From: Synechococcus sp. RS9916
GTDB lineage: Bacteria; Cyanobacteriota; Cyanobacteriia; PCC-6307; Cyanobiaceae
NCBI RefSeq assembly: GCF_000153825.1
Contig: NZ_DS022299.1
Span: forward strand, 832,869-896,868
DNA length: 64,000 nucleotides
Direction of reading: 5' to 3'
The translations under genes and the position numbers were made by a program. Under the pieces are notes generated by a model. The model was not told the origin of the DNA, did not search any database, and saw only the letters and a list, made by a program, of their open reading frames with translations. Position 1 is the first letter of the stretch. Each line of letters begins with the position of its first letter. Shown in pieces: positions 48,927-53,867 of the stretch.

Positions 48927-49379
48927 TCAACGACAGGCAGGGCAAATCCCACGCACGTTGAGCGTTGACTCGATCAGCTGGAAACCGTACTGATTGGCAG
49001 CCGTCTCGCCGGCATGGATCACCGGCGCACTCTCAAATTCCTCGGTACGACCGCAGCGAATGCAGACCAGGTGATGGTGATCGCGGTGGTCACCGGAGAG
49101 AAGCTCAAAACGCCGGCCGGCCTCGCTCAACTCCAGCTCTTGGAGAAACCCCATCTCCACCAGCAGGCGCAGGGTGCGGTAGATGGTGGCGAGGGAAACC
49201 TTCGACTCCTCATCGAGAAGCTGCTGATGCACGTCTTCAGCACTGAGATGGCGCCCTGCACCCATCCGCTCGAACAGTTCCAGGATGCGCAGCCGCTGTG
49301 GAGTCAGCCGACGACCGTCCTGATGAAGGCCGCGTTGCAAAGGTTCTTGTGCCGGTGTCGAAGACGCCCCAGTTGCCAT
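48927..49379 (-). CDS. Fur-family transcriptional regulator
   Basis: A 150-residue regulator starting MATGASSTPA. The winged-helix N-terminus is RLTPQRLRILELFERMGAGR and EESKVSLATIYRTLRLLVEM. Metal sites are the GDHRDHHHLVCIRCGRTEEF block and the last CPAC, giving two CxxC structural zinc pairs. The same block could host Fe, Zn or peroxide-sensing metals, so Fur, Zur or PerR identity is open. A palindromic operator lies just upstream, consistent with self-control. ATG 49379 is preferred to ATG 49403, which lies in the operator. Confidence 0.88.
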   Translation of the reverse strand: MATGASSTPAQEPLQRGLHQDGRRLTPQRLRILELFERMGAGRHLSAEDVHQQLLDEESKVSLATIYRTLRLLVEMGFLQELELSEAGRRFELLSGDHRDHHHLVCIRCGRTEEFESAPVIHAGETAANQYGFQLIESTLNVRGICPACR

Positions 49380-49398
49380 CGACAGCAAATTCGACCTT

Positions 49399-49420
49399 CT
49401 CAATAGTAATCACTAATGAG
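49399..49420. promoter_or_regulatory. Palindromic operator upstream of the Fur-family gene
   Basis: CTCAATAGTAATCACTAATG AG (49399-49420, read without the gap) is a 22-bp imperfect inverted repeat: left half CTCAATAGTAA against the complement of the right half, CTCATTAGTGA, 9 of 11 matching. It begins 20 bp upstream of the start. Size and A+T-rich centre fit a Fur/Zur-type box. Confidence 0.6.
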
Positions 49421-49765: not shown

Positions 49766-50149
49766 TCACTCCGAAACAGACAGGGTCTCCACCCACCAGC
49801 GCTTCACCACGCCTCCCAACTGATTGGAGTTCTGCGATCGATCGATCGATGGGGTCGTCACCACCGACAGCTGACGACCATTGCGGTGGTAATCGAAGCG
49901 GCAATAACCCTGGCCCGTGCCTGAACATGCCGAAAGGCTGGTCAGTGGGACGCCTGCACGCTGCTGATCCAAATCAAGGGGATGGTGCTGCGGGGATGGG
50001 CGCCAACCTGATCCAAGCAACACCGCATCAGCTTCCAGGATCGGCTGACCAGCACTGAGGGGAACAGCACCACGAGGTTGGGCAACGACGGCACCACCAC
50101 CGATCACACCGAGCAGTGCCAGCGAAAGCGCGAAAAATTTTGAGGCCAT
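49766..50149 (-). CDS. Secreted hypothetical protein with Cys pair
   Basis: A 127-residue protein from ATG 50149: MASKFFALSLALLGVIGGGA then VVAQPRGAVPL, a clear signal peptide. The mature part has LLGSGWRPSPQHHPLDLDQQ and SLSACSGTGQGYCRFDYHRN, with the pattern C(S)GTGQGYCRFDY suggesting a small disulfide domain, and ends GVVKRWWVETLSVSE. I believe it is a conserved picocyanobacterial family of unknown function. A longer ORF reaching 50311 is not used. Confidence 0.75.
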   Translation of the reverse strand: MASKFFALSLALLGVIGGGAVVAQPRGAVPLSAGQPILEADAVLLGSGWRPSPQHHPLDLDQQRAGVPLTSLSACSGTGQGYCRFDYHRNGRQLSVVTTPSIDRSQNSNQLGGVVKRWWVETLSVSE

Positions 50150-50220
50150 ATCAGTGCCGGCAGGTGCCAACCACTCAATAGCTATGGCCTCGACAAGGTG
50201 ACCACGGCGAGAATCAGCCC

Positions 50221-50451
50221 TTAACGGCAGAGATCCTGGTGAAGAACGCGTAACACACGTGTTGCTAAACCCCGGGAGAGCCGACGCGAGACAAGCAGGG
50301 AACAGACCCACTCGAACAGGGGTGGATTGGCAGGATCCTTCGCCAACTGGTCCCTGAGGTGCAGAAACTGCTGCGTTTCCTCACACCCCCGCAGAACATC
50401 GATCAGCTTGTCCTCCGAAACGGGGGACGGTGAGGGAGCAGCGACGGTCAT
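50221..50451 (-). CDS. Small conserved hypothetical protein
   Basis: A 76-residue protein from ATG 50451: MTVAAPSPSPVSEDKLIDVL, RGCEETQQFLHLRDQLAKD and PLFEWVCSLLVSRRLSRGLA. Mostly helical, two Cys, basic C-terminus. No signal peptide. Not recognised. It sits in a run of short minus-strand genes with similar codon use. Confidence 0.68.
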   Translation of the reverse strand: MTVAAPSPSPVSEDKLIDVLRGCEETQQFLHLRDQLAKDPANPPLFEWVCSLLVSRRLSRGLATRVLRVLHQDLCR

Positions 50452-50541
50452 GGCAGAAGACCTCTTGAGTTTCAAGCTATGCCAACAAGCACCTGAAAAA
50501 CCAGTGCCGATGACCAGAAACCATGGTCATCATCGGCCTCC

Positions 50542-50874
50542 TTAGGGCAGGTAAAGGATGTCGTCCCGGCAGCGCTGCAAGGCCTCAAGGACGACAACAA
50601 CATCCTGAGGAGTGCCCGCGTAGGCCAGTCCTTCAGGGGTGACGAGTTGACCAACAGCACTGAGGTGAATGTTGGCTCCAAACCAGGATCCACCTGAGGG
50701 GATGAATGCACGGCATTGCGGCTGACCGGAGGCCGAGATCTTGCGCTCGATCACCCAGCTGCCAACTTGGTCCAACTTGGTGAAGGTCTCCAGGCCAGCC
50801 AGGCATGGGGACGGAAACACCATGCCAGCGAACATCAGCGAAAAAAGACGGAGCATCCACGTCCCTGCAGACAC
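50542..50874 (-). CDS. Secreted hypothetical protein
   Basis: A 110-residue ORF; ATG 50856 (MLRLFSLMFAGMVFPSPCLA) gives a neat 20-residue signal peptide. The mature part has DQVGSWVIERKISASGQPQC, SGGSWFGANIHLSAVGQL and AYAGTPQDVVVVLEALQRC, with two Cys. I do not recognise the family. The arrangement GSWVIER...C...GANIHL looks like a compact beta domain. Confidence 0.7.
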   Translation of the reverse strand: MSAGTWMLRLFSLMFAGMVFPSPCLAGLETFTKLDQVGSWVIERKISASGQPQCRAFIPSGGSWFGANIHLSAVGQLVTPEGLAYAGTPQDVVVVLEALQRCRDDILYLP

Positions 50875-50969
50875 GTGCAGTCAATCTTCGGCACAGTGCC
50901 TTCCAAAGAGAATGGGTCGAAGCGCAATTCTGTGACCTAGCCCCACGGCCCTCCACAGCGATGTGGGGC

Positions 50970-51074
50970 ATGAGTCACGAGAAGAAATTATCGAAAAAAA
51001 ATCCCAGACGGGACCAACCGCCCAGGAGAAACGACTTCGATGTGGGTAAGTTAAACCTTCGCAAAGCTCCTTAA
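50970..51074 (+). CDS. Possible small basic protein, 34 residues
   Basis: ATG 50970 to TAA 51072: MSHEKKLSKKNPRRDQPPRR followed by NDFDVGKLNLRKAP. Very basic, with no hydrophobic segment. Too short to judge on its own; listed because it is the only plausible coding frame between 50.88 and 51.12 kb. Confidence 0.3.
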   Translation: MSHEKKLSKKNPRRDQPPRRNDFDVGKLNLRKAP

Positions 51075-51121
51075 CAATGAGTAAATCTGCTTAGGGCTCC
51101 AAGTCACAAAGGCAAAAGAGG

Positions 51122-51344
51122 CAGGGGAGCTCATGCGACTACAGCCCTCCGTAGGCAGGTCGAGACGCCGGAGGTATTGCCGAAGCGAGCAAAGCCTCAG
51201 CCAGCTAAGTATTTATGCTTATCTCGGGACAAATCGGCTTGCGGCTCGCGCTGGGCACATCGGGCTCCCTAGAAGCGATCCGGAAGGCTTCCGTCTTCCT
51301 TGCGTCGAGCGGGAGGTAGGCCGAGAGGCCTAGCTCCTTTTTTT
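51122..51344 (+). ncRNA. Candidate structured non-coding RNA
   Basis: No convincing ORF occupies this 223-bp stretch, yet it ends in a strong intrinsic terminator. Several hairpins can be drawn: CCTCCG ... CGGAGG (51159-51190 region) enclosing GGC/GCC, GCGAGC pairing with GCTCGC, and CGGAAG-G-CTTCCG. The 5' GGGGAGCT can pair with the 3' AGCTCC. A 66-residue frame (51133-51333) is Arg-rich, ends inside the terminator stem and looks like a shadow. I could not match it to tmRNA, RNase P RNA or SRP RNA. A 6S-like or regulatory RNA remains possible. The 5' end is a guess from the closing pair; the promoter is not identified. Confidence 0.45.
51312..51344 (+). terminator. Strong intrinsic terminator with GAGA tetraloop
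   Basis: GGAG-G-TAGGCC, loop GAGA, then GGCCTA-G-CTCC: ten base pairs with one G/G mismatch, followed by seven T residues. It is the best terminator in the window that does not follow a recognised gene. Confidence 0.85.
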
Positions 51345-51538
51345 GGAATCAACCTCAAACAGACAATCCACTTCTCTGCCCGGCCCTGACGAGAGAGTCC
51401 ACTCGGGTCCCATTTCTAGAGACACATTGATTGCTGGAGATCGCAGAGGTCGACAGACGCGAGCAAGCATCAATCCCTCAGCCTGCCTGGAGGTTTAGCA
51501 ATCAGAGTTTCTCGGGCTACCCGTCTATCCATGCTGTC

Positions 51539-51796
51539 CTAACCGCTGGAGCAGCAATGACGAGCAACGCTGGATGCCCAACTTTTAAGGGGGAACTCAT
51601 CTGAAGATTCCACCGAGACTGAAGCATTCATGCACATCGCCTGTGCAGGAGCACCATGATGAAGATCAGCCGCAATAAATTGAGCCCACATTCGCTCCTC
51701 CTCACCGTCAAATCGGGCCAGCATCGGGGTTGAGTTCAGAAGCGAAACCGTCAGCAGTGATGCGAAAGCCCCCGCTGCTGCTGCTTGCAGATTCAT
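51539..51796 (-). CDS. Possible small secreted protein
   Basis: An 85-residue ORF starting MNLQAAAAGAFASLLTVSLL, which resembles a signal peptide, then RFDGEEERMWAQFIAADLHH and a C-terminus with several Cys (MCMNASVSVESS, ARHCCSSG). Codon use is mildly biased. Not recognised. The stretch 51345-51538 before it shows no gene or repeat I can support. Confidence 0.45.
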   Translation of the reverse strand: MNLQAAAAGAFASLLTVSLLNSTPMLARFDGEEERMWAQFIAADLHHGAPAQAMCMNASVSVESSDEFPLKSWASSVARHCCSSG

Positions 51797-51924
51797 TGCG
51801 CCTTAGACACCTGCATTGATCATTGCCTGAGCACCTTGCATCTCACCACGTGACCAACAGGTGGATCGACTGAGAGTCTGCTGAGCCGGAAAGGAAGGAT
51901 TGAAACCCAGTCAGTTAAAGTCAA

Positions 51925-52128
51925 TTAGTGGACAATCTCGTGAAAGCCAGATGAGTAGGGGTAGCCAAACCCCAGCTCAATCGTTCTCACGACCTCTTCA
52001 GCTTGATAGAGACTGTGCACATGATGGCACTGATGATCAGGATCACAAACCTGATATCCACCACTGGGCAGCCTATAAATCGAGGACCCTCTTGGGGTTA
52101 AAGCAATGAGTTCGTGTTGCAAAGCCAT
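51925..52128 (-). CDS. Small hypothetical protein
   Basis: A 67-residue protein from ATG 52128: MALQHELIALTPRGSSIYRL then GGYQVCDPDHQCHHVHSLYQ and VRTIELGFGYPYSSGFHEI. Soluble, with a Cys/His-rich middle (CDPDHQCHH) that could bind a metal. The pattern looks like a genuine compact protein rather than a random frame, but no family is recognised. The space 52129-52427 upstream holds a hairpin and repeated GCATTAATACC, no gene. Confidence 0.5.
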   Translation of the reverse strand: MALQHELIALTPRGSSIYRLPSGGYQVCDPDHQCHHVHSLYQAEEVVRTIELGFGYPYSSGFHEIVH

Positions 52129-52357
52129 CGTTCTAGACAAGACCCTCTACTTCATGGCCTCGGTCAAGCCAAAGATGAGGTATCGGTCATTACGAAAACA
52201 GACATTCATTCCTCATTTCCCCAGAACTCAGGACATGAATTGAAATCCATCTATCGAGCAAGAGACAACTAGCGGAACAAAAGGCCAATGCCAGTAAGCA
52301 TTAATACCTGCTTCACGATGTCCAAAATTCAGATCTGAGCATTAATACCTTTTGAAA

Positions 52358-52383
52358 GTTTTGTGTGCCTGATGGCACAAAAC
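52358..52383. repeat. Hairpin upstream of a small membrane-peptide gene
   Basis: GTTTTGTGTGCC-TGAT-GGCACAAAAC forms about ten base pairs with a 2-nt bulge. There is no T tract on the plus strand. It lies 45 bp upstream of the 27-residue ORF and could be regulatory. Confidence 0.4.
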
Positions 52384-52427
52384 CGCTGAATCACCCTATT
52401 AAGGTTAAGCAAACACGGAGATTAGGC

Positions 52428-52511
52428 ATGAAGCTCACTCTTCCGGCAGTCCTAATAGGAGCAGCTCTGTACACCTGTTTTCACTTTTTACTAGACGGAT
52501 TATTCGGCTAA
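52428..52511 (+). CDS. Putative one-helix membrane peptide, 27 residues
   Basis: ATG 52428 to TAA 52509 encodes MKLTLPAVLIGAALYTCFHF followed by LLDGLFG. A GGAG sits about 8 nt before the ATG, a good spacing. The sequence is one hydrophobic helix. Picocyanobacteria have many such peptides; function unknown. Confidence 0.4.
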   Translation: MKLTLPAVLIGAALYTCFHFLLDGLFG

Positions 52512-52529
52512 GACGGGTTCAATCCTTGT

Positions 52530-52739
52530 CTAGTCGTGCCCAGCTCGTCTCCCTGAACGTTCTTCTTGAGTCAGATAATCTGTGATCAATGGAGATTGAT
52601 CACCACGTTCAACAGCTAAGATTTCACGCTCAATATTGTCGATGAAAAGTGTGTTGCCATTACGCTTGGCAACCTCTAGCACTCTTTTGAGGCGCTCAAG
52701 CTCTGCGGCAGCAGGGTTTGATTCGCTTTCGTTCAGCAT
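52530..52739 (-). CDS. Small helical hypothetical protein
   Basis: A 69-residue protein from ATG 52739: MLNESESNPAAAELERLKRV, LEVAKRNGNTLFIDNIEREI, ILAVERGDQSPLITDYLTQE, with a basic tail RSGRRAGHD. Strong helix signature and charged surface suggest a soluble coiled protein. The reading frame continues to 52928, but the part before ATG 52739 is not protein-like. Not recognised. The following 900 bp (52740-53639) contains no gene I can support beyond the tRNA-Pro-like repeat. Confidence 0.5.
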   Translation of the reverse strand: MLNESESNPAAAELERLKRVLEVAKRNGNTLFIDNIEREILAVERGDQSPLITDYLTQEERSGRRAGHD

Positions 52740-53061
52740 CGGGCAAGACGGAAGTGGATGGTGTTCTAGCGAATGAACCAGTTGGCAGTCAAAATGACCA
52801 CGACAAGACTTCACGCAAAATTTGGCTAACGATCGATTGACCACGACAACAGAAGATCCGAGCTCAAGTTCGACCCTGTTGACATGGGCTTCGTCGTTTA
52901 GCCGCCGCACTCCAAGCCTGTCGCTCACGCGATCTCCATAGTTCGCTCTTTCGCACAGAAGGCCTCAGACTCGCCAACCCGTTTCCTGTGCGATCAGCGC
53001 CTCAAGCTCTTGAAACAGTGTTAATCGACGCCAATTCGTCGCCGCCCATGCAGACGTAACG

Positions 53062-53163: not shown

Positions 53164-53639
53164 ACATCACCACATCAGTGCAACACTGGTGTTCCTCGAG
53201 ACGAAAATGGATCTGAGCGATTGCTGGGTGTGACAGACAGACAGCCCGAGAGGAACGATCAGATGGTCAGCAGCAGCTATCAAGCAATGGCGAGCTCAAA
53301 GCCGCCAAGACCTTCAGCAAGCGGACAGAAGCAAAGCAGCAGAAATGGAGAGCGACTCCGAACGCTTGAGGAGCCTTGGCACTGGAATCGATCAATGCGA
53401 GACCACAGCATCGACTGATACCAGAGAGCAACACGCCACACCGCATCGATTGATTGTGTCCTCGGCTGCAACAAGCCCTAACTGAGCTCAGCAATCCACG
53501 GCAACAGAAACACCTAGAACTGCGTGTCGATGCCCCTGAAGATCAACAAGCGAAAAACGTTGCCAAAAATTGAGAACCATTCACAGAGCGTGCATCAATT
53601 GCAAACGCTGCTATAAATAAATATCACTTTTTACTTGGA

Positions 53640-53867
53640 ATGACTTTTTCTGACGCATATCCAAAAGCCTATATATGCCCTAAGTGCGGCAACCAAGCCT
53701 ACGAAAGCGGACAGATTCGAGTCTCTGGTGGTTTCTGGTCCAGCTTTTTCGATGTCGGCAACAAACGCTTTAACTCTGTCTCGTGCACTCAGTGCGGTTA
53801 CACGGAGTTCTATAAAAGGACTGTTTCTGGGATTCAAAAGGTATTCGACTTCCTTGGTTCAGGCTGA
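53640..53867 (+). CDS. Small Zn-ribbon protein (nucleic-acid-binding type)
   Basis: A 75-residue protein with two CxxC knuckles: YICPKCGNQAYESGQIRVSG and NSVSCTQCGYTEFYKRT. The pattern CPKCGN ... GGFWSSFFDVGNKRFNSVSC ... CGYTEFY is that of the predicted nucleic-acid-binding Zn-ribbon family (COG3478/YpzJ-like, including many bacterial stand-alone proteins). Role unknown. The upstream DNA is A+T-rich (TATAAATAAATATCAC), unlike the flanks, consistent with a foreign origin. Confidence 0.78.
   Translation: MTFSDAYPKAYICPKCGNQAYESGQIRVSGGFWSSFFDVGNKRFNSVSCTQCGYTEFYKRTVSGIQKVFDFLGSG

Follow-up and report, generated by a model that had tools for sequence, protein, structure and literature searches.

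The interval 51125-51344 on the plus strand of a 64,000-nucleotide stretch of Synechococcus sp. RS9916 DNA (the whole stretch analysed, here termed the window) probably harbours a small RNA (sRNA) gene, a diverged paralogue within a family that, judged from sequence comparison, would consist of metal-linked, stand-alone sRNAs acting in trans in three genera of marine picocyanobacteria. A narrower claim concerns the window copy itself, which reads as a diverged, operator-free paralogue with a putative transcript. The observation that initiated this work, a structured stretch at 51122-51344 ending in a terminator with a GAGA loop, was confirmed: a covariance model (R2) derived from eight copies in other genomes, with the window and its own genome excluded, yields one match at E<=1 in the window, which covers the full model (1-232 of 232) with 31.2 bits and E=3.1e-7. 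The borders of this match are near-identical to those originally given, an agreement that was not built in. The features are compiled in Table 1.

Table 1. Features of the RNA element and its terminator (window coordinates).
Feature	Position	Strand	Basis
Whole RNA element, diverged family member	51125-51344	+	Sole R2 match in the window
5' domain, P1 remnant GGGAGC with GCCCTC	51125-51149	+	R2 alignment; weakest portion of the match
Helix P3, GGC with GCC	51154-51169	+	R2 alignment
Central conserved motif TAAGTATTTATGCTTA; counterpart in sister copies CTAG..TTAATGCCTAA	51206-51221	+	Alignments
Hairpin P4, GGAAGGC-TTCC-GTCTTCC	51282-51299	+	Fold; corresponds to family helix 6
Conserved linker TTGCGTCGAGC from P4 to terminator, candidate seed	51300-51310	+	53 of 64 distinct full copies have TGCGTC here
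Intrinsic terminator P5: 11 pairs, GAGA loop, seven T	51311-51344	+	Sequence, fold, terminator scan, family helices 7 and 8
Terminator 5' arm: GGGAG, then G, then TAGGCC	51311-51315 (GGGAG), 51317-51322 (TAGGCC)	+	
Terminator loop GAGA	51323-51326	+	
Terminator 3' arm: GGCCTA, then G, then CTCCT	51327-51332 (GGCCTA), 51334-51338 (CTCCT)	+	
Terminator T run	51338-51344	+	

As to the terminator, its GNRA loop and its run of seven T residues had been described correctly, whereas the stem is not a plain 10-bp helix, but has 11 pairs interrupted by one G-G mismatch. The isolated fold of the 223-nt stretch (-94.7 kcal/mol, z=-2.0; 4 of 200 shuffles equally good) is only moderately better than that of shuffled sequences, and within 50000-53000 the terminator scan returned six terminator-like sites, with 3.4 expected. 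Given this modest fold and the abundance of terminator-like sites nearby, the evidence of the original prediction is weak by itself, and it is the homology detected by profile hidden Markov model (HMM) and covariance models that raises the stretch above chance level. Folding also suggested a long-range pairing between the P3 region and the linker. No sigma-70-like promoter was found within 50000-53000, and inspection by eye of the family copies revealed no convincing -10 element. The element occupies a gap, and the two short candidate genes that flank it, at 50542-50874 and 51539-51796, are encoded on the opposite strand.

The RNA family is missing from the Rfam library: a covariance search with 4227 families, including 6S RNA, tmRNA, RNase P RNA and SRP RNA, gave nothing overlapping the stretch, either at the gathering score or at a relaxed threshold of E up to 5, and thus the element had rightly been set apart from the standard RNAs. 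The view that the stretch holds no credible open reading frame also stands. There is a 66-residue ATG frame (51133-51333), and hence, very improbably, a short protein gene might be considered, but the frame has no Pfam match at E<=0.01 and is not conserved among homologues, since a tblastn search of 63 copies returned, beyond the window copy, only three fragments with E of 0.015 or worse. The median family copy is open across 53% of its length.

Plain sequence comparison reveals little of the family. BLASTN with the window sequence against 60 genomes plus 31 of the genus found only a paralogue in the own genome at E<=0.01 (C1:294726-294780; 78% identity over 55 bp, E=8e-6) and nothing at this threshold in 30 congeners; short matches in 22 other genomes (E 0.04-1) were taken for chance. 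A pattern scan of 99 genomes with the terminator 18-mer gave exact matches only in the own genome, at two places, and elsewhere stayed near the reversed control. The window element and the own-genome paralogue fold alike across about 90 nt, and their pairing is kept in 93.2% of 44 cells. A covariance model of these two copies, R1, which comprises the 3' part only, reached five copies in other genera that share a longer architecture (L062, L063, L064, L068 and L079). R1 also matches simple GGCTGAGGGGCC-loop terminators (L065, L066 and L078), and the terminator alone was therefore rejected as evidence.

Starting from one of the other-genus copies, BLASTN found matches in 19 of 400 Cyanobiaceae genomes. 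An HMM of 16 copies, all from another genus (g5), matches the window at 51203-51343 (E=1.1e-4) and the own-genome paralogue with E=6e-18. Applied to the whole own genome, R2 recovers the window copy (E=1.3e-5) and the second copy, now extended to C1:294548-294786 (E=5.9e-18); a further site, C1:1403694-1403881 (E=0.02), possibly represents a third copy. As a control, R2 was run on 39 other loci (117,647 bases) and gave a single match at E<=1, with E=0.21.

The family architecture comprises a 5' hairpin P1 with a nested P2, followed by P3, the central motif TTAATGCCTAA, P4 and the terminator P5. Covariation in relatives, which the original prediction had proposed as a check, turned out to be strong. 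Among 65 distinct rows, double changes occur in 33 of 38 pairs and in 195 cells (59 in shuffles), 88.9% of cells are paired (80.1% in shuffles), and none of 500 shuffles reaches any of five covariation measures; these counts come from an alignment that was fitted to the model and includes the window copy, and they are inflated by orthologues at the same site. Slid controls are lower, with 37.7-57.0% of cells paired. P4 is paired in 94.3% of cells, with double changes in all six of its pairs, and P1 and P2 show double changes in 6/6 and 5/6 pairs, respectively. The weakest helix is the one assumed to form in the central motif (72.6% of cells). The linker hexamer TGCGTC is frequent between P4 and P5, whereas upstream of P4 it is found at only 2 of 10,623 positions. 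The P3 and P4 loops seemed to change in concert, but with identity in 3 of 26 distinct loop pairs this did not reach significance (p=0.07). Homology, covariation and the position between candidate genes thus lend good support to an independent structured RNA gene, as initially proposed, while the attribute "orphan" has to be dropped, since the stretch is part of a multi-copy family, of which one genome holds nine members.

At E<=0.01, R2 detects the family in 29 of 400 Cyanobiaceae genomes and 3 of 59 genera. Model R3, which includes the window copy, finds it in 33 of 400 genomes of the same three genera. Within the own genus, R2 matches 11 of 31 genomes (E<=0.1) and R3 13 of 31 (E<=0.01); stricter filters apply in searches of more than 40 genomes. 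The 400-genome searches scored five candidates per genome, and the copy numbers that they give, up to five, are lower bounds. A fuller scoring of genome G273, which we take to be strain CC9605, gave the nine copies at E<=1e-13, of which six measure 233-269 nt; most family copies are about 200-270 nt long. One recurrent site, in g5, lies between panB-like and HemW-like genes and another adjoins endonuclease III and a ferredoxin gene (all named by their reading frames), and the remaining sites vary in location. A scan of genome contigs added two matches, in Synechococcus sp. MU1642 and in a metagenome-assembled genome (MAG), the latter being included among the 66 aligned matches. Phage and plasmid records contained no match to the window copy or to a sister copy, and two pattern scans of viral contigs were also empty; thus, nothing suggests that the element belongs to a phage or plasmid.

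Several copies have conspicuous neighbours. The repeat CCGCCTGTGCGCTGA beside some of them was considered as a target-site duplication and rejected, as it can be read as the terminal part of short genes (...GWRRCPPPVR), which by name are presumably DUF1651 genes. Copies L068, L106, L181, L182, L183 and L185 start at or after the 3' end of short genes with a common C-terminus, e.g., ...AIEAWETMRKTVWRR or AIKAFETMRLTGWERT, such that the RNA overlaps or follows them. In another subgroup (L162, L165, L166, L168, L171 and L173) the element is preceded by a further conserved hairpin resembling a terminator, GTTCCCGAGGAGTGGGCTCTTCGGGAACCTTTTTTT, and by an inverted repeat, GATGTATCC...GGATACATC, with small changes, which together may perhaps represent another small RNA in tandem. 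Finally, two family copies are followed, at a distance of about 400-630 nt, by a Cyano-1 RNA gene (RF01701; located at L062:1987-2051 and L079:2205-2268).

The link to metals derives from a 15-bp Zur/Fur-type palindrome in the sister copies, with the consensus TGAGAAYGATTMTCA, mostly 22-23 nt before a TTAATGC motif. The cyanobacterial Zur box has been published as NTNANAATGATNATCATTNTNAN (PMC9337993). Searched with one mismatch in four genomes, the box pattern gave 26 strand-wise matches, in which palindromic places count twice, versus 4 with the reversed pattern; all four of the latter fall in G020, where the real pattern, with 6 matches, hardly exceeds the control. Outside the RNA copies, boxes lie beside a ZnuA gene in G273 (PF01297), beside zinc-type ABC genes in G010 (AztB/AztC-like, below curated cut-offs) and in G020 (by reading), as well as beside genes for a ZIP protein (PF02535), COG0523/CobW-type proteins (PF02492, PF07683) and ferritins (PF00210). 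Porin-like genes, again by reading, adjoin some of them. Some boxes, namely L231, L243 and L236, have no metal gene in view; going by the reading frames, L231 falls within a GMP-synthase-like gene and L243 within a polysaccharide-export-like one. As a predicted set, the boxes fit a zinc regulon of Zur, with the ferritins leaving Fur possible. In G273, the RNA copies at C1 1388989 and 1432602 and a box-plus-motif remnant at 1412577 lie within 90 kb (about 1.39-1.48 Mb), a region that also has boxes at the genes for ZnuA, a CobW_C protein and a ferritin.

An operator matrix was derived from 17 protein-gene places, leaving out L229, L244 and L245 (RNA copies or a remnant) as well as L231; it is partly circular, since the pattern that located its boxes had been modelled on the RNA copies. 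The scan covered 66 copies, i.e., 63 of the 66 model matches and three G273 copies, omitting L116 (a duplicate of L097), the second L189 copy, the 40-nt L172 piece and the G273 copy 998084. In 26 of these 66 copies, from 16 genomes, the best site scores at least 8.8, and all 26 sites lie at element positions 70-98; many of these copies are orthologues or sister copies, and the independent events are fewer. In the window, 2 of 63,979 positions reach that score, and therefore about 0.4 such sites would be expected by chance. The remaining 40 copies score below 8.8, including the window copy (-3.8 bits at its best site) and the eight copies at the panB site. Among 24 of the 26 boxes (two identical to a third were dropped), the half-sites pair in 135 of 168 cases, and in 103 of 119 in the protein-gene boxes, compared with 94.3% in helix P4. 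Position 4/12 pairs poorly in both sets (14 of 24 RNA-copy and 8 of 17 protein-gene boxes), and thus the palindrome behaves as a protein-binding site in DNA rather than as an RNA stem.

An operator inside the element raises the question of where transcription starts, as its internal location in the sister copies would allow a shorter transcript. It is quite conceivable, if not the reading we favour, that only about 75-110 nt are transcribed, with the operator and the central motif representing promoter DNA and the RNA consisting of P4, linker and terminator. The position of the operator at 70-98, mostly 22-23 nt upstream of TTAATGC, fits such an arrangement, as does the success of R1, which finds the family with the 3' part only. 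On the other hand, covariation is seen in P1 and P2, which lie on the 5' side of the operator, and argues for the long form; a clear -10 element is missing.

How much of this applies to the window copy is a separate matter. With its 31.2 bits it ranks 57th of 66, the best copy reaching 238.7 bits. It keeps P3, a diverged central motif and, in this order, the P4 hairpin, the linker with TGCGTC and a terminator with the GAGR loop of the family. The nested P1/P2 hairpin with GCGGGCGAGGGAACCCGC or a variant is lacking, as P2 is missing and P1 persists as a remnant only. Since the operator is absent, the metal link is not directly applicable to this copy, and with both P2 and the operator lost, the window copy is probably constitutive, otherwise controlled or decaying. 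That it is a decaying duplicate without function we regard as rather unlikely. The low rank, the absent operator and the lack of a congener match by BLASTN at E<=0.01 would agree with decay; yet the P4 hairpin, the linker and the terminator have been preserved, and the differences between the two own-genome copies mostly keep pairing.

Across the window, the highest-scoring Zur/Fur-type box (TGAGAACCATTCACA at 53571-53585, with 16.9 bits against 8.8 for the runner-up) precedes by 54 bp a gene for a Zn-ribbon protein (53640-53867, plus strand, PF09855), which is a candidate metal-regulated gene. The second-best site (51343-51357, 8.8 bits) starts at the end of the terminator T run and is probably due to chance. 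A gene for a Fur-superfamily regulator (48927-49403, minus strand, PF01475) is located 1.7 kb from the RNA; the closest solved relatives of its product are Fur and PerR, and zinc regulators score lower. A direct repeat, AGCATTAATACCT, at 52297-52309 and 52338-52350, 41 bp apart, resembles the family motif TTAATGCC.

Among described RNAs, the Yfr2 family, which we take to be identical with Cyano-1 (RF01701), is likewise a multi-copy, trans-encoded sRNA of picocyanobacteria, but the element matches neither RF01701 nor any other Rfam model. The Fur-controlled sRNAs RyhB, PrrF (which is duplicated) and IsaR1 resemble the family in its proposed mode of action, namely a metal-sensor operator, a short terminated RNA, an exposed linker and several copies. 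They differ in that Rfam scans reveal no sequence relation, the box of the family is largely found at zinc genes and the window copy has no box. The nearest published candidate, compared by its description, is Yfr103, an abundant non-coding RNA of CC9605 and other marine picocyanobacteria. CC9605 is reported to have seven Yfr103 paralogues of 290-328 nt with strongly conserved structure, which accounted for 55.2% of the mdRNA-Seq reads from the Gulf of Aqaba that mapped to this strain; homologues occur in several marine Synechococcus, in RCC307 and in five Prochlorococcus strains, and the genes have an associated palindrome between -29 and -58 relative to the start (Hou et al. 2016, PMC5069720). 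An identity of our family with Yfr103, which would make the window copy one more strain's instance of an RNA already described, appears doubtful. The host group, the multiple copies, the conserved structure and a gene-associated palindrome are shared, and adding a leader of about 57 nt to the six G273 copies of 233-269 nt would give 290-326 nt. However, G273 has nine copies rather than seven, and the Yfr103 palindrome, as positioned by its authors, would fit the operator only with a far shorter transcript. Our searches detected the family in 3 of 59 genera, while Yfr103 is reported also from Prochlorococcus and RCC307; when R3 was run on ten genomes of other genera, which may include Prochlorococcus, nine had no match below E=0.25 and the tenth, presumably RCC307, gave E=0.034.

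For the family as favoured here, a multi-copy set of trans-acting sRNAs, the following mode of action can be envisaged. The copies would be transcribed as stand-alone sRNAs, and zinc-bound Zur would silence those that carry a box. Upon scarcity of zinc (or iron), the boxed copies would be released and help to save the metal. The UGCGUC linker might then pair in trans with mRNAs bearing GACGCA and lower their expression. More tentatively, Zur-controlled, multi-copy, trans-acting sRNAs could form the repressive arm of a zinc-sparing response, in which Zur would activate genes indirectly by silencing the RNAs, while the window copy would have escaped from Zur control. In the open-access literature we found no Zur-regulated sRNA of marine picocyanobacteria, and one study reportedly ties Zur to the RNA-mediated control of a ribosomal protein in E. 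coli.

Marine Synechococcus flourishes where zinc is very scarce. The RNA family, with its multiple copies and with Zur-type boxes in 16 of the genomes examined, represents a concrete and testable candidate for a factor in metal scarcity, and if the family should prove to be Yfr103, the boxes would be the first hint at how Yfr103 is regulated.
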